64,000 nucleotides of DNA from Streptomyces sp. NBC_01255 (GTDB lineage: Bacteria; Actinomycetota; Actinomycetes; Streptomycetales; Streptomycetaceae): positions 8,122,001 to 8,186,000 of the forward strand of contig NZ_CP108474.1 in NCBI RefSeq assembly GCF_036226445.1. The letters are read 5' to 3'. The notes below the pieces were generated by a model. The model did no database searches and was not told the DNA's origin. It saw nothing but the letters and a program-made list of their open reading frames with translations. Position 1 is the first letter of the stretch. Every line of letters begins with the position of its first letter. Shown in pieces: positions 13,890-64,000 of this stretch. A program made the translations under genes and the position numbers.

Positions 13890-13916
13890 GACGTTCTCCG
13901 GGGGGTGGACGATGGT

Positions 13917-14862: not shown

Positions 14863-14869
14863 TCGTCCT

Positions 14870-20688: not shown

Positions 20689-20737
20689 CGGTTCTTCCTT
20701 AGGCAGGGATGGAGCATGGCGCGGGGACGGGGGAGCT

Positions 20738-21370: not shown

Positions 21371-21415
21371 GGCGAGAACCCCCTTCGGCGGGTTCAAAGA
21401 GGTCAGCCCAGGCTG

Positions 21416-21447
21416 GTATCAGCTGCGGGTGATGTGAGAGTATCAGC
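21416..21447. promoter_or_regulatory. Divergent ars promoter/operator with repeated GTATCAGC
   Basis: GTATCAGC occurs at 21416-21423 and 21440-21447, just before arsR and within the gap to the arsC fusion. The spacing of 24 bases suggests two ArsR contacts on both divergent promoters. The same arrangement is present, inverted, near 40277-40307. Confidence 0.5.
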
Positions 21448-21449
21448 AC

Positions 21450-21764: not shown

Positions 21765-21804
21765 CCCTCCCCCCTTGCCTCACCTGCCCGAGGAGACCCT
21801 GCCC

Positions 21805-25589: not shown

Positions 25590-25948
25590 GCGGCGGCGGC
25601 CTTGGTCAGCAGCTGGCCCATCGCCGCGAGGACGGCCGGCTCGACTCGGTAGTAGACCCAGGTGCCGCGCCGCTCGGAGGAGAGCAGCCCGGCTTCCTTG
25701 AGCTTCCTCAAGTGGTGGGAGACGGTCGGCTGCGAGACGCCGACGTCGGAGATGTCGCAGACGCACGCTTCGCCGCCTTCGTGCGAGACGACGGCCGAGA
25801 ACAGCCGCAGCCGGACCGGATCGCCCAGGGCCTTGAACATGACGGCGGTCCGTTCCGCCTCCTCCGCCGTCAGAGGCCGCTCGGTCAGCGGCGGGCAGCA
25901 TGGCTGGACGGCGGGCTCCAGCAGCGGCAGCGTTCTCATATTCGACAT
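25586..25948 (-). CDS. arsR: ArsR-family repressor with CVCD metalloid site
   Basis: 120-residue repressor. Metalloid site ACVCDISD (Cys62, Cys64) at the start of the DNA-binding helix pair, and an extra N-terminal pair Cys17-Cys18 (PCCPPL). Winged helix SQPTVSHHLRKLKEAGLL. The long frame continues upstream to 27055 but that part is antisense-frame noise over the flavoprotein gene; the ATG at 25948 matches the other copy. Co-transcribed with arsN and preceded by the arsO-like gene. Binds presumably the TCTATGTTGAC element. Confidence 0.9.
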   Translation of the reverse strand: MSNMRTLPLLEPAVQPCCPPLTERPLTAEEAERTAVMFKALGDPVRLRLFSAVVSHEGGEACVCDISDVGVSQPTVSHHLRKLKEAGLLSSERRGTWVYYRVEPAVLAAMGQLLTKAAAA

Positions 25949-25970
25949 GCGTCTATGTTGACACATGTCG
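25943..25970. promoter_or_regulatory. ArsR operator 1
   Basis: CGACATG (25943-25949) and CATGTCG (25964-25970) form an inverted repeat around TCTATGTTGAC (25952-25962). The same 11-base core recurs exactly at 27067-27077, 37838-37848 and 37905-37915, always beside an arsR or the flavoprotein gene it would control. Confidence 0.6.
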
Positions 25971-25986
25971 AAGCAGGAGTGCAGGG

Positions 25987-27042
25987 TCACGAGCGGCGCA
26001 GTTGCCCGGTCAGTCGCCGTGCGGCGCGCCGGGCGTCGCGGCCGACTCCGCGGAGGGAGGCGGAGGACAGGCTCCGCTGCCACTCCAGCCCGAGGTGGGC
26101 GAGGCGGGGGTGAGCGAGTGAGGCGCCGTCGCGGTGGCGTGGCCGGCCGTCCTCGCCGAGGGCGTCGAGCGGAGCGAGGTAGTCGAGGTCGGGCCGGTAG
26201 CCGGTGGCCAGGACGATCGCGTCCACACCCTCCTTCGTTCCGTCGGCCCAGGCGACTGTCGGGCCGTCGACGTGCGTGAACATCGGGCGGCGGTCCGGTG
26301 CCTGCGCGGCGAGGGCGGCCCGGTAGCGGCCGTCGTCGATGACCGCCATCGTGGCCGGCCTGCGCTGGAAGCGGGCGAGCGGCGCCGAGTCCAGCCCTGT
26401 GGCGTTCAGCCAGAAGTGCAGGTCCCGCCCGAGCGGTCGCTGCGGGAACCACCGCACCGGTGCGCGACTGGCCAGGCTCACCCGGGCGACCCGCGCGAGC
26501 TCGACGGCCACCTGCACCGCCGAGTTCCCGGCGCCGACGACCACGACCCGCTGCCCCGAGAACGGCTCCGGCCTGCGGTACTCCGAGACGTGCAGCACCG
26601 TGCCGGTGAAGGTGTCGAGCCCGGGCAGGGCGGGCCGGTTCGGCCGGCCGAAACCGCCGGTGGCCGTGACGACCGCCCGTGCCCCGAGCTGCCGTCCGTC
26701 CACCGTCCGCAGCGCGAATCCCTCCCCGTCCGCACGTACGGAGGAGATCTGCCGGCCGGTGCGGATGTCCGCGTCCAGGCGCTCGGCGTACCTGAGCAGG
26801 TAGGCCACCACCTCGTCCCGGTGCGGATACCGGTCCGGGTCGCCGCCGAACGGCAGGCCCGGCAGTGAGCTGTGCCGAGCCGGAGAGAACAGGGTGAGGC
26901 TGTCGTAGTACCGCAGCCACGACCCCGCCGCCTGCCCCGACGCCTCCAGCACCACAGGCGTCAGGCCCTCCCGCCGCAGGTGGTACGCCGCGGCCAGGCC
27001 CGACTGACCGCCGCCGATCACGGCGACGTCGACGTGCTCCAT
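25987..27042 (-). CDS. ArsO-like flavin-dependent monooxygenase (second type)
   Basis: 351-residue flavoprotein with FAD motif VIGGGQSGLAAAYHL and NADPH motif VVVGAGNSAVQVA; the segment YYDSLTLFSPARHSSLPG matches the ArsO signature at 22572-23630, but overall similarity between the two is moderate. It precedes arsR and arsN on the minus strand with a 38-base gap and is divergent from the cysteine-tailed flavoprotein. Not present in the right copy. Substrate inferred from context only. Confidence 0.8.
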   Translation of the reverse strand: MEHVDVAVIGGGQSGLAAAYHLRREGLTPVVLEASGQAAGSWLRYYDSLTLFSPARHSSLPGLPFGGDPDRYPHRDEVVAYLLRYAERLDADIRTGRQISSVRADGEGFALRTVDGRQLGARAVVTATGGFGRPNRPALPGLDTFTGTVLHVSEYRRPEPFSGQRVVVVGAGNSAVQVAVELARVARVSLASRAPVRWFPQRPLGRDLHFWLNATGLDSAPLARFQRRPATMAVIDDGRYRAALAAQAPDRRPMFTHVDGPTVAWADGTKEGVDAIVLATGYRPDLDYLAPLDALGEDGRPRHRDGASLAHPRLAHLGLEWQRSLSSASLRGVGRDARRAARRLTGQLRRS

Positions 27043-27066
27043 GAACAGCCTCCATTTTGATGAATG

Positions 27067-27077
27067 TCTATGTTGAC
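27067..27077. promoter_or_regulatory. ArsR operator 2
   Basis: TCTATGTTGAC in the gap between the divergent flavoprotein genes, 68 bases before the start at 27145. Exact repeat of the core of operator 1. Confidence 0.55.
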
Positions 27078-27144
27078 GCTCATCGAATCAGGTGCCATGC
27101 TGAACCCGCAAGAGATCGACAGACGTCGAAGCAAGGAGATCGTC

Positions 27145-28521
27145 ATGAACGCCATCGCCCGCGAGCAGCTGCCCGTCCTGGTCATCGGAGCCGGTCCCGC
27201 CGGTCTGGCCGCTGCCGCCCACCTCGTCGACCGCGGCCTTGAGCCCCTGGTCCTCGAAGCGGGCGAGCAGGCGGGGGCGGCGGTGCGCGAGTGGTCGCAC
27301 GTGCGGCTCTTCTCCACCTGGGGAGAGGCCACCGACCCGGCCGCCGAGAAGCTCCTGGCCCCCACCGGCTGGGTGAAGCCGGACGCGAAGACGTACCCGA
27401 CGGGCGGCGACTGGGCGGAGCAGTACCTCCAGCCGCTCGCCGACGCCCTGGGCGACCGCATCCGGCTCGGCGCCCGGGTCACCGGGGTCTCCCGCTCGGG
27501 GCGCGACCGGATCGTCGACGCCGACCGCGAGGACCAGCCCTTCACCGTCCACGTCACGTACACGGACGGCCGCGAGGAGCGGATCTTCGCCCGCGCCGTG
27601 ATCGACGCCTCCGGCACCTGGTCCACCCCGAGCCCGGCCGGCGGCGACGGCCTCCCCGCCCTCGGCGAGCGCGCCGCGGCCGACCGGATCTCCTACCGCG
27701 TCCCCGACCTCAAGAACCCGGCGACCAGGGCCCGCTACGCGGGCAAGCGCACCGCCGTCATCGGCTCCGGCGCCTCCGCCTTCACCGCCCTCGCGACCCT
27801 CGCCGACCTCGCGAAGTCACAGGACGGCTCCGGCACGCACGCGACCTGGATCCTGCGCCGCGGCATCTCCGGCTCCACCTTCGGCGGCGGATCCGCCGAC
27901 CAGCTCCCCGCCCGTGGTGCCCTCGGCCTCGCCGCCAAGGCCGCCGTCGACGAGGGTCACGCCGACGCCGTCACGGGCTTCCGGGCCGCGGCGTTCGAGC
28001 GCGACGGCGAGCAGCTCGTCCTGGTCGCGGAGGACGGCCGCCGTCTCGACCCGATCGACGAGGTCATCGTCCTCACGGGCTTCCGTCCCGACCTCTCCTT
28101 CCTCGACGAGCTCCGCCTCGGCCTCGACGAGCGCCTCCAGGCGCCGGTCGCGCTGGCCCCGCTCATCGACCCCAACCAGCACTCCTGCGGCACCATCTAC
28201 CCCCACGGGGCGAACGAGCTCTCCCACCCGGAGGAGGGCGTCTATCTGGTCGGCATGAAGTCCTACGGCCGCGCCCCGACCTTCCTCGCCCTCACCGGCT
28301 ACGAGCAGGTCCGCTCCGTCGTCGCCGCCATCGCCGGCGACCAGGAGTCCGCCGAGCGCGTCGAACTCGTCCTCCCCGAGACCGGGGTCTGCGGCGGCGC
28401 CGGCCTCTTCGACGACCAGTCGGCCGACGACACCCAGGCCGACGGCGGCGGCTGCTGCACGCCGGCCCCCGCGCTCATCCTGCTCGGCGCCGGTTCCCAG
28501 GCCACCGCCGGCGGCTGCTGA
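27145..28521 (+). CDS. FAD/NAD(P)-dependent oxidoreductase with cysteine-pair tail
   Basis: 458-residue flavoprotein. FAD motif VIGAGPAGLAAAAHL at residue 12, NAD(P) motif VIGSGASAFTALATL, and a conserved HVRLFSTWGEATDPAAEKLL block. The last 60 residues include CGGAGLF, GGGCCTPAP and end GGC, a cysteine-rich tail not needed by the fold and possibly a metalloid-binding or redox tail. The ATG at 27145 follows AAGGAGAT. A diverged copy is at 36395-37768. Followed by arsI after 32 bases. Such genes accompany arsenic genes in actinobacteria, but the reaction is not known to me. Confidence 0.8.
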   Translation: MNAIAREQLPVLVIGAGPAGLAAAAHLVDRGLEPLVLEAGEQAGAAVREWSHVRLFSTWGEATDPAAEKLLAPTGWVKPDAKTYPTGGDWAEQYLQPLADALGDRIRLGARVTGVSRSGRDRIVDADREDQPFTVHVTYTDGREERIFARAVIDASGTWSTPSPAGGDGLPALGERAAADRISYRVPDLKNPATRARYAGKRTAVIGSGASAFTALATLADLAKSQDGSGTHATWILRRGISGSTFGGGSADQLPARGALGLAAKAAVDEGHADAVTGFRAAAFERDGEQLVLVAEDGRRLDPIDEVIVLTGFRPDLSFLDELRLGLDERLQAPVALAPLIDPNQHSCGTIYPHGANELSHPEEGVYLVGMKSYGRAPTFLALTGYEQVRSVVAAIAGDQESAERVELVLPETGVCGGAGLFDDQSADDTQADGGGCCTPAPALILLGAGSQATAGGC

Positions 28522-36398: not shown

Positions 36399-37768
36399 GA
36401 GCCGCAGGAGGGCGCCGGGGTCGTGGTGCCGAGCGGGATGAGCGCGGGGGCGGGAGCGCAGCAGCTTCCGCCGTCCGCGGTCTGCTCCGTGTCCGGCTGG
36501 TCGAAGAGGCCGGCGCCGCCGCACACTCCGGTCTCCGGGAGGACGAGTTCGACGCGCTCGGCCGACTCCCGGTCGCCCGCGAGGGCGGCGACGACGGAGC
36601 GGACCTGCTCGTAGCCGGTGAGGGCGAGGAAGGTGGGGGCGCGGCCGTAGGACTTCATGCCGACGAGGTAGACGCCCTGTTCCGGGTGGGACAGCTCGTT
36701 CACGCCGTGGGGGTAGACGGTGCCGCAGGAGTGCTGGTTGGGGTCGATCAGCGGGGCCAGTTCGACCGGGGCCTGGAGGCGCTCGTCGAGGCCGAGGCGC
36801 AGCTCGGAGAGGAAGGAGAGGTCGGGGCGGAAGCCGGTGAGGACGACGACCTCGTCGACCGGGTCGAGCCGGCGGCCGTCCTCGGCCACGAGGACCAGAC
36901 GGTCGCCGTCGCGCTCGATCGCCTCCGTACGGAAGCCGGTGACGGCGTCGGCGTGGCCCTCGTCCACCGCGGCCTTCGCGGCGAGACCCAGTGCGCCGCG
37001 GGCGGGGAGCTGGTCGGCCGTGCCGCCGCCGAAGGTGGAGCCGGAGATGCCCCGGCGCAGGATCCACACGGCCTTCGCCCCCGCGCCGTCCTCGGCCTTG
37101 GCAAGGTCTGCGAGCAAGGCGAGGGCGGTGAAGGCGGAGGCGCCGGAGCCGATGACGGCGGTGCGCCTGCCCGCGTAACGGGCTCGGACGGACGGGTCCT
37201 TGAGGTCGGGGACACGGTAGGTGACGCGGTCGGCGGCGGCCTTCTCGCCAAGAGCGGTGAGACCGGACGCGCCTGCCGGGCTCGGGGTGACCCACGTGCC
37301 GGAGGCGTCGATCACCGCGCGGGCGAACAGCCGCTCCTCCCGGCCGTCGGCGTGGGCGACGTGGACGACGAACGGCTGGGCGTCGCGGTCGGCGTCCACG
37401 ATGCGGTCGCGGCCGGCGCGCGAGACGCCGGTGACCATGGCGCCGGTGCGGACGCGGTCGCCGAGGACGTCGGCGAGCGGCTGGAGGTAGTCGGCCGCCC
37501 AGTCGCCGCCCGTCGGGTACGTCGTCGTGTCGGGCTTCACCCAGCCGGTGGGGGCCAGGAGCTTCTCGGCAGCCGGGTCGGTGACCTCGCCCCACGTGGA
37601 GAAGAGACGGACGTGCGCCCACTCGCGTACCGCCGCACCAGCCACCGGCCCCGCCTCGAGAACCAGCGGTTCGAGGCCACGCCCGACGAGGTGGGCGGCG
37701 GAGGCCAGGCCGACGGGCCCGGCCCCGATGACCACGACGGGCAGCTGGTCGGTGGCGGTGGTGTTCAC
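36395..37768 (-). CDS. FAD/NAD(P)-dependent oxidoreductase with cysteine tail (copy 2)
   Basis: 457-residue relative of 27145-28521, sharing the FAD motif VIGAGPVGLASAAHL, the LFSTWGEVTDPAAEKLL block and the tail with CGGAGLF, GGSCCAPAP and a final CGS. Identity is high but clearly below that of the arsR/porin tract. The GTG at 37768 aligns with the start of copy 1. Divergent from arsR and arsN with two operator cores in the gap; overlaps the MFS gene. Confidence 0.8.
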   Translation of the reverse strand: MNTTATDQLPVVVIGAGPVGLASAAHLVGRGLEPLVLEAGPVAGAAVREWAHVRLFSTWGEVTDPAAEKLLAPTGWVKPDTTTYPTGGDWAADYLQPLADVLGDRVRTGAMVTGVSRAGRDRIVDADRDAQPFVVHVAHADGREERLFARAVIDASGTWVTPSPAGASGLTALGEKAAADRVTYRVPDLKDPSVRARYAGRRTAVIGSGASAFTALALLADLAKAEDGAGAKAVWILRRGISGSTFGGGTADQLPARGALGLAAKAAVDEGHADAVTGFRTEAIERDGDRLVLVAEDGRRLDPVDEVVVLTGFRPDLSFLSELRLGLDERLQAPVELAPLIDPNQHSCGTVYPHGVNELSHPEQGVYLVGMKSYGRAPTFLALTGYEQVRSVVAALAGDRESAERVELVLPETGVCGGAGLFDQPDTEQTADGGSCCAPAPALIPLGTTTPAPSCGS

Positions 37769-37837
37769 GACGATTCCCCTTTGTTTCGACATCTGTCGAT
37801 CCCTTGTGCCGCAAGCATGGCACCTGCATCGACACTC

Positions 37838-37848
37838 GTCAACATAGA
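37838..37848. promoter_or_regulatory. ArsR operator 3
   Basis: GTCAACATAGA, the reverse complement of TCTATGTTGAC, 70 bases before the flavoprotein start and in the same relative position as operator 2 in the left copy. Confidence 0.55.
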
Positions 37849-37904
37849 CATTCATCGAAGTGGAGCGGATCCCGGGCACCCCTTGGGCGCCTGGTTCGAT
37901 GTGT

Positions 37905-37915
37905 GTCAACATAGA
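37905..37915. promoter_or_regulatory. ArsR operator 4
   Basis: GTCAACATAGA again, only three bases before the arsR start at 37919; it corresponds to operator 1. With operator 3 it brackets the divergent promoters. Confidence 0.55.
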
Positions 37916-37918
37916 TAC

Positions 37919-38278
37919 ATGTCGAATGCTGCGCTGCCGCTCCTTGAGCCCGAGGTCGCCCCCTGCTGCCCGCCGCTCACCGAGCGCCCGCTGAACGCCG
38001 AGGAGGCCGAGCGGACCGCGAAGATGTTCAAGGCGCTCGGCGATCCGGTCCGGCTGCGCCTGTTCTCGGCGGTCGCCTCGCACGAGGGCGGCGAGGCGTG
38101 CGTCTGCGACATCTCCGACGTCGGCGTCTCGCAGCCGACCGTCTCCCATCACCTGAAGAAGCTGAAGGAGGCCGGGCTGCTCTCCTCCGAGCGGCGCGGG
38201 ACCTGGGTCTACTACCGCGTCGAGCCCGCCGTCCTCGCTGCAATGGGTGCGCTCCTCACCAAGGCGGCCGCCGCATGA
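37919..38278 (+). CDS. arsR: ArsR-family repressor with CVCD site (copy 2)
   Basis: 119-residue repressor, about 90 percent like 25586-25948. Keeps ACVCDISD and the N-terminal PCCPPL pair. Overlaps the arsN start by four bases. Likely controls arsN on one side and the flavoprotein-MFS unit on the other through the flanking operator cores. Confidence 0.9.
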   Translation: MSNAALPLLEPEVAPCCPPLTERPLNAEEAERTAKMFKALGDPVRLRLFSAVASHEGGEACVCDISDVGVSQPTVSHHLKKLKEAGLLSSERRGTWVYYRVEPAVLAAMGALLTKAAAA

Positions 38279-38775
38279 CCGTCGCGACCACCGTCGTCGT
38301 GCCCCTGACCGCCGCACACGCCGACGAGGTCGTCGCGATCTACCAGGCCGGCATCGACGAGGGCAACGCCACCTTCGAGACCACCGCCCCCACCTGGGAG
38401 CAGTTCGACGTGGCCAAGCTGCCGGAGCACCGCTTCGCCGCCCTCGATGCCGACGGGACGGTGCTCGGCTGGGTCGCCGCCACCAAGGTCTCCGACCGGT
38501 GCGCGTACGCGGGCGTGATCGAGCACTCGGTGTACGTGCACCCCGACGCCAGGGGCCGGGGCGTCGCCTCCGCGCTCCTCGTCGCCCTCGTCGACTCCAC
38601 CGAAGCGGCCGGCATCTGGACCATCCAGTCCGGCGTCTTCCCCGAGAACACCGCCAGCCTCGCCGTCCACCGGCGGGCCGGCTTCCGGATCATCGGCACC
38701 CGTGAACGCATCGGCCGCCATCACGGCGTCTGGCGCGACACCGTCCTCATCGAGCGCCGCAGCACCGTGGTGTGA
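38275..38775 (+). CDS. arsN: GNAT acetyltransferase, ArsN type (copy 2)
   Basis: 166-residue paralogue of 25089-25589 with the same CoA motif HPDARGRGVASALL and the segment CAYAGVIEHSVYV. Differs at roughly one residue in eight, so the pair has diverged since duplication. Immediately followed by the broken arsO remnant on the opposite strand. Confidence 0.85.
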   Translation: MTVATTVVVPLTAAHADEVVAIYQAGIDEGNATFETTAPTWEQFDVAKLPEHRFAALDADGTVLGWVAATKVSDRCAYAGVIEHSVYVHPDARGRGVASALLVALVDSTEAAGIWTIQSGVFPENTASLAVHRRAGFRIIGTRERIGRHHGVWRDTVLIERRSTVV

Positions 38776-39151
38776 GCGCGGCGGCGGTACTCAACGGCGT
38801 GGAGTTAGGCGCCCTTGAACTCCGTACGGCCGGGGACGGGGATGGACGGGCGCCACCAGGTGCCGGTCGCGCTGATCACCGTACGGGCCCGCCGGCTGCC
38901 GGCGTCGGCCTCCACGCGCAGGAACTCGCCGTCCCGGTGGACCGCTTCGACCCTGACCGATCGGACGACGGGAAGCTCGTACCGCCGCTCGTAGTCGGTG
39001 AGGTACGAGACGACGTGCGCCGCGTCCCGGTACGTCTCGCCCGACTGCGGCGGCGGATGGCGAAGTCGAGGTCGAGGCGGCGCAGGTGGTAGCCGGCGGC
39101 GAGCCCGGTCTGGCCGCCGCCGATCACCACAACGTTCGCGACCTGTGTCAC
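38776..39151 (-). pseudogene. arsO remnant, internally deleted and truncated
   Basis: Starts like arsO ([16 protein letters not shown]) with a GTG overlapping the porin stop. It loses about 40 codons after LDLDF, including the [11 protein letters not shown] signature, resumes out of frame with [18 protein letters not shown], and stops being similar shortly after PGRTEFKGA, near the arsN end. Cannot encode a working monooxygenase. Confidence 0.85.
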
Positions 39152-39918
39152 TCGGTGGTCGTCTTGCCGCGCATGAAGATGATCGCGACCAGGGCCAGTC
39201 CCGCGACCGCTCCGATGATCTGCATGCCGATGAATGCGGGGACGGAGGCGGGAGCGATGCCCGCGAACGTGTCGGTGAAGGCGCGGCCGATCGTCACGGC
39301 CGGGTTCGCGAACGAGGTCGACGAGGTGAACCAGTAGGCCGCGCCGATGTACGAAGCCACGGCGACGGGTGCGAAGCGGAGCCGGTCGGTACGGGCCAGG
39401 CCGAAGATCAGCAGGATGAGGCCGGCCGTCGCCACGACCTCGCCGAGGAGCAGGTTGCCTGCCGAGCGGTCGTGCGTGGACCACTTCACCAGCGGCTCGC
39501 CGAACATCGCGTCCGCCAGCACCGCGCCCGCGATCGCGCCGACGACCTGTGAGGGGACGTACACGGCGAGCTCGCGCCCGTTCACGCCCGCGCCTCCACG
39601 GCGGGCGGTCCACCACTCGGCCAGGGTGACGGCCGGGTTGAAGTGGGCACCCGACACCGGGCCGAGGAGCGCGATCAGGACGCCCAACCCGAAGACGGTG
39701 GCGGTGGAGTTCGCGAGGAGCTGCAGGGCGACGTCGTCGGTGAGGTCGGTGGCCTGGATGCCGGAGCCGACGACGATCGCGACCAGCGCGGCGGTGCCGA
39801 CGAGCTCGGCGGCCGCGCGGGCGACGAGCGGGGTACGGGGCGGGGTGGCGCCGGGCGCGGGCTGCGGCGACGTGTCGGTAGCTATGGCGTCGCTCGCGGC
39901 GGGCTTGGTGGCGGTCAC
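39148..39918 (-). CDS. Aquaglyceroporin-family channel (copy 2)
   Basis: 256-residue channel differing from 21805-22575 by one residue near the end (Ser to Thr before the final Glu). Carries both NPA boxes. As in the left copy the arsO start overlaps its stop, but here arsO is broken. Second gene after arsR. Confidence 0.9.
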   Translation of the reverse strand: MTATKPAASDAIATDTSPQPAPGATPPRTPLVARAAAELVGTAALVAIVVGSGIQATDLTDDVALQLLANSTATVFGLGVLIALLGPVSGAHFNPAVTLAEWWTARRGGAGVNGRELAVYVPSQVVGAIAGAVLADAMFGEPLVKWSTHDRSAGNLLLGEVVATAGLILLIFGLARTDRLRFAPVAVASYIGAAYWFTSSTSFANPAVTIGRAFTDTFAGIAPASVPAFIGMQIIGAVAGLALVAIIFMRGKTTTE

Positions 39919-39958
39919 GGGCAGGGTCTCCTCGGGCAGGTGAGGCAAGGGGGGAGGG

Positions 39959-40273
39959 TCAGGGACAGGAGCGCTTGAAGTTCGCCTCGGCGGTAAGGCG
40001 CGCGGTCTGCGCGAGTGCGGCGAACTGCCCGGCGAGCTGCTCGATGACGTCCGGCTTGAGCCGGTAGTACGTGAACCTGCCGCAGGGCTCGGTCTCCACG
40101 ACCCCGGCCTCGCGCAGCACTCTCAGGTGGTTGGAGAGGTTGGTCTGCTTGGCACCGGTCTCCTCCACCAGGTGGGTGGTGCAGAGCGTCTCGCGGGCGA
40201 GCAGGGTCACGATCTGGAGGCGCAGGGGATCACCCAGAACCCGGATCAGATCAGTATCGACTGACGTCATCAT
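39959..40273 (-). CDS. arsR: ArsR/SmtB-family repressor (copy 2)
   Basis: 104-residue protein identical to 21450-21764, with the same Cys31, Cys64 and Cys103. The two identical genes give the cell two doses of one repressor acting on both divergent promoters. Reads leftward into the porin gene. Confidence 0.9.
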   Translation of the reverse strand: MMTSVDTDLIRVLGDPLRLQIVTLLARETLCTTHLVEETGAKQTNLSNHLRVLREAGVVETEPCGRFTYYRLKPDVIEQLAGQFAALAQTARLTAEANFKRSCP

Positions 40274-40276
40274 GTG

Positions 40277-40307
40277 CTGATACTCTCACATCACCCGGAG
40301 CTGATAC
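40277..40307. promoter_or_regulatory. Divergent ars promoter/operator (copy 2)
   Basis: Mirror of 21416-21447. GCTGATAC occurs at both ends of this gap, before arsR and facing the arsC remnant. Confidence 0.45.
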
Positions 40308-40352
40308 CAGCCTGGGCTGATCTCTTTGAACCCGCCGAAGGGGGTTCTCGCC

Positions 40353-40667
40353 ATGGCCGAGTCCTCGTACCCGGTCCTTCCCGACGAACGTCTCGCGGCC
40401 GGTGTCGCCCGCCTCGCCGTGCGTCACCAGGGCCGGTACTCCGTGGAGACGGTACAGCGGCTGATCGCCGACTCCTACGAGCAGCTCGCCGCGAACGCGC
40501 ACGTCCGCACCCACCTCGTCGTGCTCGCGGAGCGGTTCGCCGCCGAGCGCCCGGACGCACTGGTGCACCCCGAGAACCCCATCGCCACCGGTGGCCGGCC
40601 GCGGGATCCGCGACGCCATCGACACCCGTATCACCACCCTGCTGGACACCCTGTCCGGCACCTGAAG
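40353..40667 (+). pseudogene. Arsenate reductase fusion, catalytic domain deleted
   Basis: Keeps the first 72 or so residues (three-helix-bundle domain, VETVQRLIADSYEQLAANA) of the left-copy protein. A deletion of about 320 bases then joins to the last 20 codons (IRDAIDTRITTLLDTL) in another frame, removing the P-loop and both redox cysteines. The in-frame product would be the helical domain plus junk, so a free dimerisation domain might still be made. Confidence 0.85.
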
Positions 40668-40713
40668 CTTCCCGTCCCCGCGCCATGCTCCATCCCTGCC
40701 TAAGGAAGAACCG

Positions 40714-41130
40714 ATGACCGCTCCGCTCGCCTCCGTGCTCTTCGTCTGCGTCCACAACGCCGGCCGCTCCCAGATGGCCGCCGGGTTCCTGAACCACCTC
40801 GCCGGCGACCGCATCGAGGTCCGCTCCGCCGGCTCGATCCCGGGCGACCAGGTCAACCCGGCCGCGGTCGAGGCCATGGCCGAGGTCGGCGTCGACATCT
40901 CCGACCAGAAGCCGAAGGTGCTGACCACCGAGGCCGTCCAGGCGTCCGACTACGTCATCACCATGGGCTGCGGCGACGCCTGCCCGATCTTCCCGGGCAA
41001 GAAGTACCTCGACTGGGCCCTGGAGGACCCGGCCGGCCAGGGCGTCGATGCCGTCCGCCCCATCCGCGACGAGATCAAGGTCCTCATCGAGGGCCTCATC
41101 GCCGAGATCGACGCGAAGAAGGAGGCGTGA
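40714..41130 (+). CDS. arsC: Arsenate reductase (copy 2)
   Basis: 138-residue protein identical to 20272-20688, with Cys12, Cys86 and Cys90. The thioredoxin reductase gene that follows it in the left copy is missing here, so it would depend on that copy or on housekeeping thioredoxin reductase. Last gene before a strong hairpin. Confidence 0.92.
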   Translation: MTAPLASVLFVCVHNAGRSQMAAGFLNHLAGDRIEVRSAGSIPGDQVNPAAVEAMAEVGVDISDQKPKVLTTEAVQASDYVITMGCGDACPIFPGKKYLDWALEDPAGQGVDAVRPIRDEIKVLIEGLIAEIDAKKEA

Positions 41131-41187
41131 CCTCAGTGACCGACCGGCCACAATTGTGAGCGGGCGCCGGCCGCGTTGGTACGGGCT

Positions 41188-57704: not shown

Positions 57705-59075
57705 TCAGCCGGTGACCGTGTCCGGATCGTCGAGCTCGTGCAGGCCTGCCGGGTCCTCGTCGGTCAGCACCACTCCCGTAGCAGTGACCAAGCGCTGGCC
57801 GTGGCCCCGATGGACGCACAGGAGTTGGTCGCGGGTGCCGGTCCGGTCGCGGTACGCGGCCAGGGCAGGGCCGTATTTGCTGCTGTGGTCCGGGACCTCG
57901 GCGTCCGTGCTCCACCGCGTGCCGTCGTAGGAGGACCACCACAGCCGCTGGCGAGCGGGGTCGCGGTGGACGCAGATCAGCTTGTCGTCGAAGACGGCCA
58001 GGCCGATGTTGCTCCGGGTACGGTGCCCGGGCAGCGCGCCCTCGGAGGTCCAGGTTTCGCCGCGCAGCCGGCTCCAGTGGATCGCCCCGTCCTTGGGGTT
58101 GCCGTGGAGCAGGTGCAGGGCGCCGTCGTACACGGCGAGCGCCGGGGACCTCGTGGTGGCACAGCCGGGGACGGGTTCAGGGGTGGTCCAGGTGTGGCCG
58201 TCCCGGCTGGTGGTGACCATGATCCGCTGGCCGGCCTCGGCGTAGGCGAGGTGGAGGGCGTCCTGGAAGACGGCCAGCGCCGGGCCGTAGACGCTCTCGG
58301 CGTACGGGACCGGCTGGTCCGGGCCCCAGGCGTCGCCGTCGTACGAGGTCAGCGCCATGCCCCAGGTGCCCGAGCCGCCGCGGTGCGCGCAGTACAACCG
58401 GTCCTCGTACACGGCCAGGGCAGGGCTGCCCAGGGTGTGATGGGAGGGGAAGGGCCGGTCCTCGGACCAGCTGCCGTCAGCGCGGTGCGCGGTCCACCAC
58501 AGCTCGGGGTCGTCGCCCCGGCCCTGGTAGACGCAGTACAGGTCGCCGCGGAAGACGGCCAGGGCGGGGGTCTCGGAGGCGTAGCAGGCCGTGAACTGTC
58601 GCTCGGCTCCCCAGCCTGCGTCCGGTGCGAACACGCTGAACCACAGGCCGGTCTCGCGGGGTGGGGCGTCGAGGGCCACGGGAGCGAGGAGTGTGGGTGC
58701 GGCCCACGGAGAGGTCAGCTCGCATCCGGCGCCCCGGGCGGTCGCCCGGATCCGTTCGGCGCGTTCGGTCAGTCGCGCGCCGACTGCATCGGCGAGGTCC
58801 TCGGGCAGGGCTCCGGCGAGCACGTCCTGGACCAGGCCGGGGAAACCGCTCATGGGGCCGGTGCCGTCGGGGCGCACGAGGCGGTCGACGGACCCCGGGT
58901 CGAGGCGGAGGGTGAAGCCCCACTCCAGCAGGCGGACGGACACGCTTGCTCCCGCCTCGGCGAGCGCCTTGGCCGCCCGTTCCGCGCGTTCCACGGCCTG
59001 GGGCGACGGGGTGTCCGCGCTGGGGCCCGGTGTGGTGCTGTTCTTCCGCCTGGGGTCGGTGCCTTCGATCGCCAT
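57705..59075 (-). CDS. Beta-propeller repeat protein
   Basis: 456-residue protein. Residues 1-120 are a non-repeat region (AERAAKALAEAGASVSVRLL); from about 135 six to seven repeats of about 54 residues each carry a (T/S)PALAV(F/Y)..xLYC(V/A)(H/Y)RG core (e.g. SPALAVYEDRLYC, GPALAVFQDALHL). This is a bladed propeller of the BNR/fucose-lectin-like type. No signal peptide seen, so it may be cytoplasmic. Lies 188 bases after the MOSC gene on the same strand; link to the operon unproven. Confidence 0.75.
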   Translation of the reverse strand: MAIEGTDPRRKNSTTPGPSADTPSPQAVERAERAAKALAEAGASVSVRLLEWGFTLRLDPGSVDRLVRPDGTGPMSGFPGLVQDVLAGALPEDLADAVGARLTERAERIRATARGAGCELTSPWAAPTLLAPVALDAPPRETGLWFSVFAPDAGWGAERQFTACYASETPALAVFRGDLYCVYQGRGDDPELWWTAHRADGSWSEDRPFPSHHTLGSPALAVYEDRLYCAHRGGSGTWGMALTSYDGDAWGPDQPVPYAESVYGPALAVFQDALHLAYAEAGQRIMVTTSRDGHTWTTPEPVPGCATTRSPALAVYDGALHLLHGNPKDGAIHWSRLRGETWTSEGALPGHRTRSNIGLAVFDDKLICVHRDPARQRLWWSSYDGTRWSTDAEVPDHSSKYGPALAAYRDRTGTRDQLLCVHRGHGQRLVTATGVVLTDEDPAGLHELDDPDTVTG

Positions 59076-59263
59076 GCTGTCTTCCTGTCTGCAGGGCCGC
59101 GGGCCGGGCGGCCCGCCCTCCGCGTGGTGCGTGGGCGAGCCGTCCGGGTCCCCGGACATGGACGCTTGCGGCCCGTTCCTCGCGTGCTTCACGCCGGTGT
59201 GCGGGCCTTCTGGTGATGCGGGGGATGCGCCGGCGAGGACGAGTGGCCGTCGGCCGCGTGCCG

Positions 59264-59809
59264 TCAGCGAGCGTGGGTGGACGGCGAGGGCGATTGCGCG
59301 TCGTGCGGAGGCGGGTGGATCCGGTCGCCGACCCTGATCGTCCCGCCGTGGACCACTTCGGCCCGCAGCCCGCCGCGGTGCAGCAGGCCCCGGATCAGGC
59401 CGGGGCGGACGAGTTGTTCGAGGCGGGCGCAGGGTTCGCTGAGTCTGAGGCCGCGCAGGATCACTGTCCCGATCCGGAACTCGTGGTCCACCAGCGGGTT
59501 GAGCCGGATGTCGCGGCAGACCAGGTTGCGGCGGCATTCGGCGGGGGCGAGGAGGATGTCGTGTTCGCGGGCAAGGGCGTCGAGGGACTCGGCCTCGATG
59601 AGGGTGATGGCGCAGACCCCGGAGGCCCGTCCGGTCCCCCGGCGGCGAGGTCGGGGGCCTTCGCCCGCCCAGTAGTTGCGGTCGCCCACCAGGCCCCGGC
59701 CGGTCACCGCGCGGACCTGCGCGAGGGGGAAGGTCGGCTCACCGGGGTGCGCGGCGAGGTGCAGGGAGGCGACCAGGCCGGGACCCGGCGGCGGCGAGGC
59801 CTGTGCCAT
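59264..59809 (-). CDS. MOSC-domain protein
   Basis: 181-residue single MOSC domain. Opens with GLVASLHLAAHPGEPTF and shows GLVGDRNYW, AECRRNLVC and EPCARLEQL, the conserved Cys region of MOSC proteins, which act in Mo-cofactor sulfuration or N-hydroxylated-compound reduction (mARC, YiiM). In an operon with an N-oxygenase a role in handling N-hydroxylated intermediates is attractive but inferred. Seven bases after the carrier-protein gene. Confidence 0.83.
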   Translation of the reverse strand: MAQASPPPGPGLVASLHLAAHPGEPTFPLAQVRAVTGRGLVGDRNYWAGEGPRPRRRGTGRASGVCAITLIEAESLDALAREHDILLAPAECRRNLVCRDIRLNPLVDHEFRIGTVILRGLRLSEPCARLEQLVRPGLIRGLLHRGGLRAEVVHGGTIRVGDRIHPPPHDAQSPSPSTHAR

Positions 59810-59816
59810 GGGCGCT

Positions 59817-60050
59817 TCACCCCTTCAGGAAGTGTTCCGTAAGGGAACGGAGGGTACGGAACTGGTTCACGTCGATCCGGTCGAGGCTCAGCTCCCGGCC
59901 GATCAGGTCCTCCAGCAGCAGGATGAACTCCATGAAGCCGAGCGAGTCGATCAGCCTGCTCTCGATCAGGTCGAGGTCGTCCGGGATGTCTCCGACGGTG
60001 GGGTTGCGTTCGCGCAGCCAGTCCACGATCGGCTTGGTGACGTCGGCCAT
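59817..60050 (-). CDS. Acyl/amino-acyl carrier protein
   Basis: 77-residue carrier protein. The 4'-phosphopantetheine Ser is in LIDSLGFMEFI near residue 36; acidic helices follow. Lies one base from the flavoprotein gene and seven bases before the MOSC gene. Expected partner of the amino acid:carrier protein ligase two genes upstream, which would load it with an amino acid. Confidence 0.9.
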   Translation of the reverse strand: MADVTKPIVDWLRERNPTVGDIPDDLDLIESRLIDSLGFMEFILLLEDLIGRELSLDRIDVNQFRTLRSLTEHFLKG

Positions 60051-60051
60051 G

Positions 60052-61080
60052 TCATGTCTCCTGGATCCGATGAGGCGCTGGGGGCGTGCTCGTGTGCGAG
60101 CCGGCGCGGAGGACGAGGGCGTCCTCGTACTCCTGGCGAATCCGGGCGACGGTGGCGGCGGCCGGGTGCGTGGTGGTGACTCGGGTGCAGGACCGGCCGC
60201 AGTACATGGCCATCTCCTCGATGCGCCCGGTGGTGGCGGCGCCCGGGGCCGCCGCGCTGTAGCGCGGTACCGGGTACGGCCGGCCGTCCACCCGGGCGGT
60301 GGCGATGAAGGCGGCTGGGGCGCGCTCCGTGGCGGTGGTGAGGGAGTTGCGCAGGACGCGGTGCGGGCGGTGCGGCCAGCCGATCTCGAAGAGGGAGGTG
60401 ACGAGGGTGTCCTCGGCCACCGCCTCGACCACGCGCCGCTTGAACTCCGGGTGCGCGGCGGATTCCGTGGCCGGTACGAACAGGGTTCCGGCCGTGGCGC
60501 CGTCCGCGCCGCGGGCCACCGCGTCGGCGAGGTCCCCGCCGGTGGCGATCCCGCCGGCGACGGCGAGGACGGCGTGCGGGTGGCGGGCCCGGACAGTGGC
60601 CAGCAGGGAGGCCGCAGGCTGCTCGCCGAGCAGGTGGCCGCCGGCCTCGGTGCCCTGGAGGACCAGAACGGCCGCTCCCCGTGCGAGGGCGGTGTCGGCG
60701 TCGGCGGAGGTGCCGACCTGGACCACCAGCGGGCGCCCGGCGGCCCGCACGGCGTGGGCCGCGTCGTCGGCGGGAAGCCCGAAGGCGGTGACGAAGCCGT
60801 TGCGGGGAAGCTCGGGCAGGACGGCCCGGAGCTGCTCCAGGCAGCGGTCCGGTCCGGTGACCTCGGGGACGACGTTCACCCCGAAGGGGCGGCCCCCGGT
60901 GGCGGCCGCCACCTCCCGGACCAGTCGGGCCGCCCGCGCGGGTGGTTCCTTGTACAGGGCGAGGGTGCCGCCCGCTCCGGCCCGGGACACTTCGGCGCAC
61001 AGGCCGGGACCGGCGACGGCCCCCATACCGGCCTGCAGAAGGGGCAGTTCGAGCCCGAGCAGGGCGGCGAGCCGGGTCAC
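60052..61080 (-). CDS. Nitronate monooxygenase/FabK-like flavoprotein
   Basis: 342-residue TIM-barrel flavoprotein (2-nitropropane dioxygenase family). FMN site GMGAVAGPGLCAEVSRAG near residue 18, FGVNVVPEV, LQGTEAGGH (family His) and AGGIATGGDLADAVA. Members oxidise nitronates or reduce enoyl groups. Its GTG start overlaps the ligase stop (GTGA). In the company of a diiron N-oxygenase, action on a nitro or nitronate intermediate is possible. Confidence 0.87.
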   Translation of the reverse strand: MTRLAALLGLELPLLQAGMGAVAGPGLCAEVSRAGAGGTLALYKEPPARAARLVREVAAATGGRPFGVNVVPEVTGPDRCLEQLRAVLPELPRNGFVTAFGLPADDAAHAVRAAGRPLVVQVGTSADADTALARGAAVLVLQGTEAGGHLLGEQPAASLLATVRARHPHAVLAVAGGIATGGDLADAVARGADGATAGTLFVPATESAAHPEFKRRVVEAVAEDTLVTSLFEIGWPHRPHRVLRNSLTTATERAPAAFIATARVDGRPYPVPRYSAAAPGAATTGRIEEMAMYCGRSCTRVTTTHPAAATVARIRQEYEDALVLRAGSHTSTPPAPHRIQET

Positions 61081-61970
61081 GAGCGTTCCCCCGCCCGCCG
61101 TACCGCACGGTGTGCGGCGGTCAGGTCGCCTTCGAACAGGTCGCCCAGGGCGTGCACCCAGCGCTCCAGGCCGAAGGCGACGCAGCCGGTGAAGGCCGGG
61201 CGGCCGGCATGGCCGATCGCGCGGCGCTCGCCGAAGAAGTTGCGGTGGTTGTTGGTGGAGGCGATGGCGGTGCCGTCGGTGTGCAGGTACTCCTCCTTGA
61301 CCGGGGCGAGCAACTGCATGACGGTGCGGGCGCCGTCCTTCTGGAAGAAGGGGTCGGTGGCGGGCCGCCGGTCGAGGGTGAGGCCGAGGGAGGCGCCGAA
61401 GGCGAGGATCCGCTCCCGGTGCCGGTCGAGGTGGGTCCGCACGGCTTCGGCCGAGCCGACGCACACGAGCTCCCGCATGGTGAACCCCCAGAGCCTGCGC
61501 AGTCCGTCGTGGCAATCCTCGTTGCGGAAGCACTGTGCGACGGTGCTGACCAGGACGGGGGTGTCCGTACTGCTGCCGGTGAGGTGCACGAAGCAGCCGT
61601 AACAGGCCGCGGAGGGCAGGAGGTGGGTGGCGTCGGCGAGGTCGGAGGCGGGCAGTGCGGTGGCCGCAAGCGGTCCGGTGACGTCGTACGGGCTCGTGGC
61701 GAGGGCGGCCAGTCGGTCGGGGCGGATCCGGGCGACCGGGCTGCCCAGGTGCGGAAAGTTGCGGAAGTAGTCCAGGGTCCGCAGGTCGTCGACCCGCAGC
61801 AGCGGGGGGTAGCTCTGCTGCCGGGCCCCCGCCTCGGCGCCCCAGCGCGTGAACACCGCGTCCAGCGCGGCCTTCAGCACGACGGCCGGTTCGTCGAGGG
61901 TCACCAGGCCATCCCGCACCGACCAGCCGGCCCCGGTCGCCCTGGGGGTCATGCGGTCGGTGTCAGGCAT
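61077..61970 (-). CDS. Amino acid:[carrier protein] ligase (class-II aaRS-like)
   Basis: 297-residue protein that resembles the catalytic core of seryl-tRNA synthetase but lacks a tRNA-binding arm. Motif 2 is CFRNEDCHDGLRRLWGFTMR; candidate zinc ligands lie in SAACYGC, MRELVCVG and FTGCVAFGLERW (motif 3). Stand-alone homologues charge amino acids onto carrier proteins instead of tRNA. The ATG at 61970 overlaps the diiron oxygenase stop by eight bases. It should load the carrier protein encoded at 59817-60050. Confidence 0.85.
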   Translation of the reverse strand: MPDTDRMTPRATGAGWSVRDGLVTLDEPAVVLKAALDAVFTRWGAEAGARQQSYPPLLRVDDLRTLDYFRNFPHLGSPVARIRPDRLAALATSPYDVTGPLAATALPASDLADATHLLPSAACYGCFVHLTGSSTDTPVLVSTVAQCFRNEDCHDGLRRLWGFTMRELVCVGSAEAVRTHLDRHRERILAFGASLGLTLDRRPATDPFFQKDGARTVMQLLAPVKEEYLHTDGTAIASTNNHRNFFGERRAIGHAGRPAFTGCVAFGLERWVHALGDLFEGDLTAAHRAVRRAGERS

Positions 61971-62892
61971 CGAACACCCCGATCCGGCGAAGGAAACCGG
62001 TCGTCTTGTGGAGGACCCTGGTGTGGGCGACCTGCCGCGCCGGGTGGGCGAGCAGCCGGCTACGCAGGGCGTATCCGCCGGGGAGGCCGGCGTCACGGTA
62101 GACGGCGGGACTGTAGAAGGACCCGATGCTGATGGCGAGGTAGCGGTCGAGGTAGGCGCGCAGGTCGTGCCGGGCCGCGTCGTCGAGGCCGCTGCGGAGG
62201 AGGCGCTCCCACAGCAGGTGCACCAGGCGGCAGCCGAAGGCGATGTGCCGGGACTCGTCCTGGTGGTGCAGCCGGTTGATGTGCCGGATGGTCGGGTGCA
62301 GCCGGTCGTCGGCGGCCAGGTGGACGTTGTAGTGGTCGACGATCTGCTCGAAGATCAGGATCCGGGCGAAGACGAGGAAGTTCTCGATGTCCGGGTCGCG
62401 CGGGGCCTCGGGCAGCTTGACCGACTTGTCGGGGTAGATCTTGTCGGCGTACTTGAGGCAGAAGGTGGCGAAGAACCACATGTGATCGTTCTCCTCACCG
62501 ACGAAGTGGTGGAAGAACTCGGAGGGCAGCTCGAAACCGGGCGTGTGGATGCGCCGGGTGACCTCGATGAGCAGCTCGCGGATGCCGTGCACGTTGAGGC
62601 TGTAGAAGTTGACGCTCTCCCACCTGCTCAGGGCCCGGAGCTGGGCGGGGCTCAGCTCGTCCATGAGCTCCGTGCCGTGGACGGAGAGCAGTTCGGGGGA
62701 CATCCACAGGCCGTCGGTGGGGATCGCGGGCGGCCAGTCGAAGGTGGTGAACGGGTTGTAGTAGTCCGCGGTGGCCTTGTCGGAGAGCCGGTCGAGCAAG
62801 GCCCTGAACTCGGTGTCGTCGGGGCCTGCGGCCGTGGTGGTGGTGGCGGCCGTCGTCCCGGGCGGGGCGGCCTGGGGGCGCATGGACGTCAT
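61963..62892 (-). CDS. AurF-like diiron oxygenase
   Basis: 309-residue helical protein of the AurF/CmlI type. Iron ligands are seen in RWESVNFYS (Glu), EENDHMWFF (Glu, His), ILIFEQIVDHYN (Glu) and HHQDESRHIAFG (His, Glu, His). AurF-type enzymes oxidise amines to hydroxylamine, nitroso or nitro groups. ATG 62892 overlaps the phosphatase stop (ATGA). With the carrier-protein ligase next to it, the substrate may be a carrier-bound amino acid. Confidence 0.87.
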   Translation of the reverse strand: MTSMRPQAAPPGTTAATTTTAAGPDDTEFRALLDRLSDKATADYYNPFTTFDWPPAIPTDGLWMSPELLSVHGTELMDELSPAQLRALSRWESVNFYSLNVHGIRELLIEVTRRIHTPGFELPSEFFHHFVGEENDHMWFFATFCLKYADKIYPDKSVKLPEAPRDPDIENFLVFARILIFEQIVDHYNVHLAADDRLHPTIRHINRLHHQDESRHIAFGCRLVHLLWERLLRSGLDDAARHDLRAYLDRYLAISIGSFYSPAVYRDAGLPGGYALRSRLLAHPARQVAHTRVLHKTTGFLRRIGVFDA

Positions 62893-63845
62893 CCCTTCCA
62901 CCGGACCGATGCCAGCAGGGCCCGGTGGAGTTCGGGAGTGGACGCGGCCACGCAGGACCGCTGGTTGGCGACGCCCAGGTCGGTCAGGACGGTGTCGCCG
63001 AGCGGCTGCCCGTAGGCGTCGGTGATGACCGCCCCGGCCCGCTCGGCGAGGAAGACGGCCGCGGCGATGTCGTACGGGAACAGGTGCAGGACCCGGCCGT
63101 TGCCGACGCGCTCGAACTCGGGCAGCAGCGCCGGATCGTCGCGCAGCAGCCGGTTGCCGATGTCCACGTAGGCGTCGAGCTGGCCGGTGAGCAGCCGCGA
63201 GATCGACCAGGTGGCGCTGTTGAAGACGAAGACCCCGCCGGTGTTGGCCGAGCGGTCGATGAGGTGACCGTACGCCTCGGTCATCAGACGGGCCGGGTGG
63301 CCGTTGAACTCCAGGGACCAGAACATCCGTGCCGGGTCGGTGGTGCGGGTCAGCGCCGGGACGGGGTGGTCGTAGCCGTGCGCGGTGATCCCCGGCGTCA
63401 CGAGGTCTCCGTAGAGGTAGGCGCCCGTGCGCAGTTCCATCAGCAGCGCGTGCTCGACGTCCGCGATGCGCGGGCGCCCCGTCATACGGGCGACCGCGAC
63501 CGAGACGGTGGCCGACTCCAGACCGGCGACGGCGGGCCGGGTGCCGTCGATGGGGTCGACGACCAGCAGATGGGCCGGGTCCGCGCCGTGGTACCGCAGT
63601 CCGCGGTCCTCGGAGTAGACGGCGACGGGCAGGTCGTGGCCGGCGATGTACTTCCAGACGGCTGCCTCGGCGACCTCGTCGAGGCCGAACTGGGCGTCCC
63701 CGCCCGGAGAGAGGCCCCGTACGAGCCGGCTGCCGTGCTGGTGCCGGGCGGCCAGTACGGCCTCGCGGACGGCACCGGCGAGGCCGGTCACGTACGAGCG
63801 CATGGCCTCGGCGGACGGCGGGCCGCCGTGCGTGGGGGCGGTCAC
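62889..63845 (-). CDS. Inositol-monophosphatase-family protein
   Basis: 318-residue sugar-phosphate phosphatase fold. VDPIDGTRPAVAG is the metal-binding DPxDG motif; the usual first acidic motif is SEDRGLRY, and PYDIAAAVFLAERAGAV is the C-terminal WDxAAG equivalent with Pro-Tyr replacing Trp. Lys and Glu of the first motif need checking. Its GTG start overlaps the aminotransferase stop and it couples to the diiron oxygenase. Substrate may be a phosphorylated pathway intermediate. Confidence 0.82.
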   Translation of the reverse strand: MTAPTHGGPPSAEAMRSYVTGLAGAVREAVLAARHQHGSRLVRGLSPGGDAQFGLDEVAEAAVWKYIAGHDLPVAVYSEDRGLRYHGADPAHLLVVDPIDGTRPAVAGLESATVSVAVARMTGRPRIADVEHALLMELRTGAYLYGDLVTPGITAHGYDHPVPALTRTTDPARMFWSLEFNGHPARLMTEAYGHLIDRSANTGGVFVFNSATWSISRLLTGQLDAYVDIGNRLLRDDPALLPEFERVGNGRVLHLFPYDIAAAVFLAERAGAVITDAYGQPLGDTVLTDLGVANQRSCVAASTPELHRALLASVRWKG

Positions 63846-64000
63846 GCGGCGGCCTCCTCTGCGAAGAGCGCGTCGAGCCGGTCGCAGAGCAGATCCGCCT
63901 CCTCGCGGGTGAGGATCAGCGGCGGCCGGATCTTGATCACGTTGCCTCGGCCGTAGCGGGAGGTGCGCAGGACCAGGCCGTGGTCCATGCCGCGCCGGGC
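63842..64000 (-). CDS. Class-III aminotransferase, C-terminal end (partial)
   Basis: The last 52 codons run off the right edge. The sequence KIRPPLILTREEADLLCDRL is the typical C-terminus of class-III PLP aminotransferases (4-aminobutyrate/ornithine type). It is the most upstream gene seen of the leftward operon and overlaps the phosphatase start by four bases. Confidence 0.8.
   Translation of the reverse strand, partial: ARRGMDHGLVLRTSRYGRGNVIKIRPPLILTREEADLLCDRLDALFAEEAAA

Follow-up and report, generated by a model that had tools for sequence, protein, structure and literature searches.

We describe here an 11-gene block whose product is, with a probability of roughly three in four, kifunensine or a compound very close to it. 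Its downstream part lies at the right end of a 64,000-nucleotide stretch of Streptomyces sp. NBC_01255 (G000:C1:8122001-8186000, in an 8.57-Mb genome whose Streptomyces type was judged by its relatives; hereafter the window). There it appears as a run of seven genes at 59264-64000, all on the minus strand, with neighbours that overlap by 4-8 bases or are spaced by 1-7 bases. An earlier note on this DNA had named the families of these seven genes, had seen no nonribosomal peptide synthetase (NRPS) or polyketide synthase (PKS), and had proposed a separate new amino-acid system without a described match. The families proved right, with Pfam and NCBIfam in agreement (Table 1), and no NRPS or PKS was recognised within L009, the 20-kb stretch that continues the sequence past position 64000, where no called gene exceeds 716 amino acids and the domain search covered part of the flanking genes. 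Extending the sequence, as the note had suggested, supplied the whole aminotransferase and four more genes (L009:11287-15114) that are co-directional with the seven. The full order is zinc-dependent dehydrogenase, ROK kinase, APH-family kinase, intradiol-dioxygenase-like gene, class-III aminotransferase, IMPase-family phosphatase, AurF-like diiron oxygenase, amino acid:carrier-protein ligase, nitronate monooxygenase (NMO)-like flavoprotein, carrier protein and MOSC protein. The seven genes lost their standing as a system of their own, because the flanking dehydrogenase completes a known azasugar signature (PMC8382821, PMC8466323).

All 16 loci of this composite type hold the 11 genes on one strand, in one order and within 9.4-9.9 kb, and the gene order that the note had proposed to seek in other genomes does recur. 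They comprise the window's own locus; Streptomyces G019, G747, G732 and G909; Streptomyces sp. TSRI0281, Streptomyces sp. ADI95-17, S. goshikiensis, S. niveus and S. lavendulae CCM 3239; Kitasatospora sp. CB01950, K. griseola, G900, G902 and G926; and Protofrankia coriariae. Matches cover at least 84% of the query, except for the aminotransferase of P. coriariae (L102; 70%, split in two frames). The 16 AurF sequences are all different, and the pairwise distances of the other ten genes track those of AurF (r 0.85-0.96). Because the same genes stand in the same order across Streptomyces, Kitasatospora and Protofrankia, the arrangement is not due to chance. A beta-propeller gene follows the block in 11 of the 16. 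Genes were called with a simple script based on GC by codon position, and tblastn recovered those that it missed or shortened (the ROK gene in L102, the MOSC gene in L081, the start of the intradiol-like gene and probably that of the dehydrogenase).

Kifunensine is the cyclic oxamide of 1-aminomannojirimycin, that is, mannojirimycin with two further carbons and one further nitrogen. Its formation needs an azasugar and a C2N unit such as the C-C-N of glycine, which fits a block made of two modules. The source organism is Kitasatosporia kifunense (PMC8628514, PMC6337617, PMC6943557), and we infer that G900 is its genome from a 100% match to P0069, a protein named Kitasatospora kifunensis. G900 carries the full block at L171, where the 11 genes are 80-92% identical to those of the window: dehydrogenase 83% (82% by tblastn), ROK 92%, APH 81%, intradiol-like 87%, aminotransferase 90%, IMPase 89%, AurF-like 84%, ligase 82%, NMO 80%, carrier 83% and MOSC 85%, with the beta-propeller gene at 78% (77% by tblastn). 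L171 is the only azasugar-type locus found in this genome, which gave one IMPase match and an aminotransferase score of 975 bits against 229 for the runner-up. In the window genome the block's aminotransferase is likewise the sole one of GabT1 type (950 bits versus 224 for the next). Since the same 11 genes stand in the same order in the presumed genome of the kifunensine-producing species, the block is probably its assembly line, and the window strain itself would by its gene content make kifunensine. No paper on kifunensine genes came up in the literature searched, which left subscription journals largely outside, so a published cluster is possible; the fusion of an azasugar triad with a glycine cassette and its link to kifunensine were not found there either. 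To the extent of that literature, what is new is the fusion, its strict conservation and the kifunensine link. The claim of a system without a described match holds for the fusion and fails for its two halves, which are of known kinds; a match of the flanking genes to a characterised pathway, named by the note as counting against it, was found in part, in the recognised azasugar triad.

The azasugar half consists of the aminotransferase, the phosphatase and the dehydrogenase, which are clustered in 16 of 16 loci. The genes gabT1-yktC1-gutB1 are the three-gene signature of azasugar (nojirimycin/deoxynojirimycin, DNJ) formation (PMC8382821, PMC8466323): the aminotransferase aminates fructose-6-phosphate, the phosphatase frees a hydroxyl, the dehydrogenase oxidises that hydroxyl and the chain closes (PMC8382821). 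The function given to the triad here is taken from these papers rather than from our analysis. The same three genes occur without the cassette in Bacillus, Brevibacillus, Actinomadura, Pseudomonas and other Streptomyces, and the Bacillus proteins are 57-60% (aminotransferase), 57-60% (IMPase) and 37-39% (dehydrogenase) identical to those of the block. Unlike the canonical triad, the block has its dehydrogenase upstream, the ROK, APH and intradiol-like genes in between, and the AurF-like, ligase, NMO, carrier and MOSC genes downstream. The DPIDGT and PYD motifs of the IMPase are invariant in six orthologues. For the aminotransferase, the literal consensus SGNXFRXXXFPNXXXXXXXLXVPXPYCXRC is absent and the relaxed form SGESFRKEPFP...LQVPDPYCLRC is present; the Bacillus triad enzymes also miss the literal spacing. 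A kanosamine-type aminosugar, raised by the combination of ROK kinase, dehydrogenase, aminotransferase and phosphatase, was rejected on finding that the aminotransferase and the IMPase match the azasugar set instead. A phosphonate pathway was raised by Bacillus velezensis NRRL B-41580 among the IMPase relatives and was also set aside; the neighbours there are the triad and transport-type genes (by eye), and phosphonate genes were not searched for.

Among 43 IMPase-family loci on GTDB contigs, eight hold an AurF gene and all eight hold the full 11. Within their stored stretches, the other 35 gave no ROK, APH, intradiol-like, ligase, NMO, carrier or MOSC match within 9 kb that reached 40% identity and half coverage; in several of them (e.g. 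L104-L106, L113, L119, L125, L134) the stored stretch extends only a little way to one side. Weak ROK matches below that threshold were seen in two (31% in L117, 37% in L135). The aminotransferase is kept in 34 of the 35 and the dehydrogenase in 24, the Bacillus dehydrogenases falling just under the threshold. By genus, the IMPase was found in 15 of 392 Streptomyces genomes, three of composite type by score, and in 10 of 70 Kitasatospora genomes, five of them composite by score (L100, L101, L171, L173, L175). Composite-type proteins are also recorded on plasmids (P0018/P0128 of Streptomyces sp. BI20; P0254 of Streptomyces sp. P8-A8), which suggests that the block may move between strains.

A survey of 2062 Streptomyces genomes reported 114 azasugar clusters in 110 of them, 41 genomes having 'disordered' ones in which most of the interleaved genes belong to the APH, ROK and intradiol-dioxygenase domains or to one other domain group (PMC8466323). 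The interleaved APH, ROK and intradiol-dioxygenase domains are shared with the block, and these 'disordered' clusters are probably the very composite loci described here. As described in the available text, they come with no named diiron oxygenase, ligase, carrier, NMO, MOSC or product, and neither 'diiron' nor words starting with 'oxygenase' occur in the main text of PMC8466323. Its authors considered that some 'disordered' clusters might yield a product other than DNJ. In the window's block, the intradiol-like protein resembles 4ilv/4ilt and keeps the pair of tyrosines and the pair of histidines (Y84, Y113, H119, H121 of A3) where they are expected. We take these four residues to be iron ligands.

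The second half of the block resembles known machinery for a carrier-bound amino acid. The ligase has no Pfam match and scores 114.5 bits with the NCBIfam amino acid--[ACP] ligase model, under the cut-off of 357; against PDB sequences it gave two matches, both Bll0957-type ligases (best E 5.5e-24). In that alignment 87 of 243 residues are identical, and C123, E167 and C263 align with C131, E176 and C279 of Bll0957 (chain numbers minus 20), its zinc-binding residues. Bll0957 prefers glycine. The carrier protein has a DSL site with Ser36 as the pantetheine site. The AurF-like protein reached 94.7 bits with PF11583 (cut-off 29.6) and gave no match in single or profile searches of PDB sequences; its structural model (pLDDT, the predicted local distance difference test score, 86.7) has AurF 2jcd as best PDB fold match (E 8e-5), followed by 3chh and CmlI. 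The putative metal ligands E92, E134-x2-H137, E182 and H209-x3-E213-x2-H216, were assigned by the ligand spacing of AurF rather than by superposition; across 30 relatives each of these positions is either invariant or conserved to at least 90%. The NMO-like protein has H149 in an AGGH motif, and three other matches to it in the same genome are 33-36% identical. A FabK enoyl reductase was rejected for this gene (NCBIfam FabK 99 bits of the required 453).

The MOSC protein is a candidate molybdenum-cofactor N-OH reductase: its fold and Cys127 may fit such a job. Its profile found no match in PDB sequences at E 1, and its model (pLDDT 80.1) gave 13 PDB fold matches at E of 0.001 or below, among them YiiM (5yhh, 5yhi) and human mARC1 (6fw2, 7p41), with 14-21% identity in the fold matches. 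Cys127 is invariant in 28 aligned sequences, and the conserved Cys of MOSC proteins presumably binds molybdenum. YiiM and mARC reduce N-hydroxylated compounds; unlike them, the block's MOSC protein lies in a biosynthetic operon.

Denitrifying cassettes of the glycine-nitronate kind reportedly use an NMO, and the ligase, carrier, AurF-type oxygenase and NMO of the block together are the gene set of such a cassette. The loading of an amino acid on the carrier, oxidation of its nitrogen and processing of a nitronate, as first proposed for the seven genes, are supported by family, predicted fold and active-site residues; their free-standing status is not, as the azasugar genes are joined to them. 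He and Ryan (2021, Nat. Chem. 13:599, cited in PMC9967187 and PMC12154687) are reported to have described a nitronate that a diiron oxygenase forms from glycine and that is afterwards O-methylated (to an enteromycin carboxamide) or denitrified. That pathway would share with the block glycine on a carrier, an AurF-family diiron oxygenase and, in its denitrifying branch, reportedly an NMO. The block differs in having no O-methyltransferase, in being joined to the azasugar triad and in having, among the rows sampled here, its own AurF clade. Fragin/valdiazen (ham) and mangotoxin (mgo) biosynthesis are likewise said to use an AurF-like N-oxygenase on a carrier-bound amino acid, but with NRPS adenylation modules, ham yielding diazeniumdiolates. 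Two other products were considered and dropped: an enteromycin-type O-methyl nitronate, because the 11-gene block has no methyltransferase, and a nitrite-generating cycle via glyoxylate and the aminotransferase, because the latter turned out to be of azasugar type.

An AurF-type match at E 1e-20 is present in 75 of 392 Streptomyces genomes. In a quick AurF tree, 12 composite rows fall in one clade (branch value 98) together with three orphan rows from two genomes that have neither ligase nor carrier; this clade stands apart from the methyltransferase-linked rows and from other NMO-linked rows. Outside the composite loci, 18 of 34 rows have a methyltransferase neighbour (17 and L010), in a sample drawn by similarity and not at random. 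The tree bears on whether the cassette is instead a new free-standing pathway for a carrier-bound amino acid, unrelated to sugars. Ligase, carrier, AurF-like and NMO genes do occur without azasugar genes in the seen stretches of L045, L046, L047 and L086. In the clade of the window gene, however, 12 of the 15 sampled rows adjoin the triad, the other three lack ligase and carrier as well, and the 11-gene order is fixed in every composite locus. Because cassette and triad travel together in this clade, we reject the free-standing pathway as very improbable. The orphan AurF-like genes of the clade lie at L048 9539-10405 and L049 909-1766; two orphan proteins, P0046 and P0086, miss some metal-ligand residues and so look like decaying relics.

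A route to kifunensine can be proposed from these genes. The ROK kinase would supply a hexose phosphate (a guess from the behaviour of its family), the aminotransferase would aminate fructose-6-phosphate, the IMPase would take off the phosphate, and the dehydrogenase would oxidise C6 to give a product that closes to mannojirimycin. In the second module the ligase would charge the carrier protein with glycine or, at any rate, with a small amino acid, the AurF-like enzyme would take the glycine nitrogen to the oxime or nitronate level, and the NMO-type flavoprotein would process the nitronate carbon, bringing the carrier-bound carbon to the oxamoyl or oxalyl level. An oxamoyl, N-hydroxyoxamoyl or glyoxylyl thioester would then acylate mannojirimycin at its ring nitrogen; the amide nitrogen would close on C1, perhaps after an APH-type kinase has activated the C1 hydroxyl (again a guess from the family), and the MOSC protein would reduce a leftover N-OH. 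We infer the reactions of the second module, the joining steps and the roles of the ROK, APH, intradiol-like and MOSC proteins. Two sub-routes are conceivable. If the nitrogen is kept, the nitronate would become a hydroxamate, followed by transfer, closure and reduction of the N-OH by the MOSC protein; if it is lost, the NMO would release nitrite alongside a glyoxylyl thioester, leaving the second nitrogen to come from another source. That the oxamide of kifunensine arises by the nitrogen-keeping route, with an N-hydroxyoxamoyl thioester joined without an NRPS and stripped of its N-OH by the MOSC protein, is a tentative and somewhat doubtful proposal. The same chemistry could serve an azasugar conjugate other than kifunensine, for example one in which a C-C bond links a glycine nitronate to nojirimycin's cyclic imine, or an N-glyoxylyl, N-hydroxy or N-nitroso azasugar. 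Nitronate chemistry would permit such a bond, the NMO and MOSC proteins fit nitrite release or N-oxide handling, and K. kifunensis could make kifunensine by genes outside those seen. Against this stand the lack of a second GabT1-type aminotransferase among the matches in K. kifunensis and the formula of kifunensine itself, with its two-carbon, one-nitrogen unit, and we regard such a conjugate as improbable.

Several points weigh against kifunensine as the product. Neither a condensation gene nor an acyltransferase gene that could join the two halves is present in the block; the usual NMO chemistry would remove the glycine nitrogen, so the second nitrogen of kifunensine would need another source; and the intradiol-like protein, which keeps all four expected iron ligands, has no part in the scheme. 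The aminotransferase match of L102 is split, with its 70% coverage. The species identity of G900 is presumptive, and the assignment to kifunensine comes from gene content and comparison. By chance alone the block would be present in the producer with a probability of about 7% (5/70 Kitasatospora genomes); its being the only azasugar-type locus found there weighs more. The remaining points concern the possibility that the block makes nojirimycin, mannojirimycin or DNJ, the glycine cassette being a separate nitrite supply or redox partner that contributes no part of the azasugar. S. lavendulae, S. nojiriensis and S. subrutilus are producers of DNJ or nojirimycin (PMC6713920, PMC8466323), and all three hold composite-type genes (L138; P0248 and P0274; P0014). 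In S. lavendulae CCM 3239, S. goshikiensis, S. niveus and P. coriariae the single IMPase match is of composite type. With S. lavendulae as a DNJ species, DNJ or nojirimycin could come or leak from the block. No report of kifunensine from S. lavendulae, S. nojiriensis or S. subrutilus came up, no search directed at these species having been made. The DNJ strain UN-8 is a different S. lavendulae from CCM 3239, and the word 'genome' is absent from the available text on it (PMC6713920). S. nojiriensis and S. subrutilus, on the other hand, have a canonical triad elsewhere that could explain their DNJ (PMC8466323), and the 35 other triad-type loci all do without a glycine cassette in their stored stretches. 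The composite aminotransferase is also a separate lineage: in a tree with 28 of the 35 triad-only loci (genes called, longer than 380 amino acids, above 45% identity), the 16 composite sequences lie on one side of a branch with a value of 100, and their motif is SGE in 16 of 16 where the triad-only enzymes have SGN in 22 of 28, the other six being matched by neither pattern. A plain nojirimycin-type product is accordingly unlikely, and kifunensine or a very close analogue remains our preferred assignment.

Table 1. Genes of the 11-gene block and the accessory gene beside it (window positions unless marked L009).
Feature	Position	Strand	Best match or remark
MOSC-domain protein (YiiM/mARC fold)	59264-59809	-	Pfam MOSC PF03473 2.2e-9
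Stand-alone carrier protein	59817-60050	-	PP-binding PF00550 3.4e-4, 21.3 bits vs cut-off 20.8; Ser36 in DSLGF
NMO/FabK-like flavin mononucleotide (FMN) protein	60052-61080	-	PF03060 2.6e-33
SerRS-like amino acid:carrier-protein ligase	61077-61970	-	NCBIfam amino acid--[ACP] ligase 4.6e-33
AurF-like ferritin-fold diiron oxygenase	61963-62892	-	PF11583 7.3e-27
IMPase-family phosphatase (YktC1 type)	62889-63845	-	PF00459 1.4e-15
Class-III aminotransferase (GabT1 type)	63842-64000 in window; whole gene L009:9842-11176 (window-equivalent 63842-65176)	-	PF00202 1e-92
Intradiol-dioxygenase-like gene	L009:11287-11652, longer start possible at 11811	co-directional with block	
APH-family kinase	L009:12043-13023	co-directional with block	
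ROK kinase	L009:13073-14023	co-directional with block	
Zinc-dependent dehydrogenase	L009:14020-15114	co-directional with block	
Beta-propeller/BNR-like protein, accessory	57705-59192	-	BNR_2 2.9e-5, 24 bits, under cut-off 31.4

The window genome has four ligase loci, that of the block included. At L010 (G000:C1:3880001-3900000; 9601-14161) a second ligase, AurF-like and carrier set is accompanied by an S-adenosylmethionine methyltransferase and one of LCM type, and AcpS and methionine-cycle genes were recognised there by eye; this gene content fits an enteromycin-like O-methyl nitronate cluster. L011 (G000:C1:4730001-4750000; 9168-16118) is a ligase locus with an AurF-like gene, an LCM methyltransferase and a KASIII-type C-terminal domain, to which inspection by eye adds AcpS and two carriers. 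L012 (G000:C1:840001-860000; 9053-16676) has a ligase, a carrier and a phosphopantetheinyl transferase-like gene, and no AurF-like gene was recognised in it. In L083, L094 and L095, AurF-like, carrier and ligase genes lie by agmatine-deiminase-, threonine-aldolase- and condensation-type genes (names by eye), which is another arrangement.

Among the composite loci, the Protofrankia locus L102 has its ROK and APH matches in one open frame (1495-3621), as if fused, and its aminotransferase region falls in two frames from 4289. Two azasugar IMPases, one composite (672.8 bits) and one that scores as canonical (410.3 bits), are present in G747 (L080), which resembles S. nojiriensis and S. subrutilus of PMC8466323 in this respect. 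Elsewhere in the window lies a large imperfect inverted repeat that pairs 20257-22986 with 38837-41145 and 25104-28455 with 36458-38763, by eye in arsenic-type operons; its arms match over 1521 nt (98%), 475 nt (100%), 1317 nt (85%), 481 nt (87%), 366 nt (86%) and 218 nt (92%).

Kifunensine is a drug-like compound that blocks protein glycosylation. It inhibits class I mannosidases and is used in glycobiology and for the production of high-mannose therapeutic proteins (PMC8628514, PMC6337617). If the cluster assignment is true, 16 genomes, several of them from culture collections (JCM, NRRL, CCM), would be at hand for its production and engineering. The assignment also raises the chemical question of whether the glycine nitrogen survives into the oxamide. 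If it does, the nitrogen-keeping route would to our knowledge, and with no dedicated search made, be the first conversion of an amine to an amide that depends on N-oxygenation, and the first biosynthetic role of a MOSC protein in natural-product assembly. For the streptomycetes and their relatives, the assignment, if true, would give a product to the so far unexplained 'disordered' azasugar clusters.

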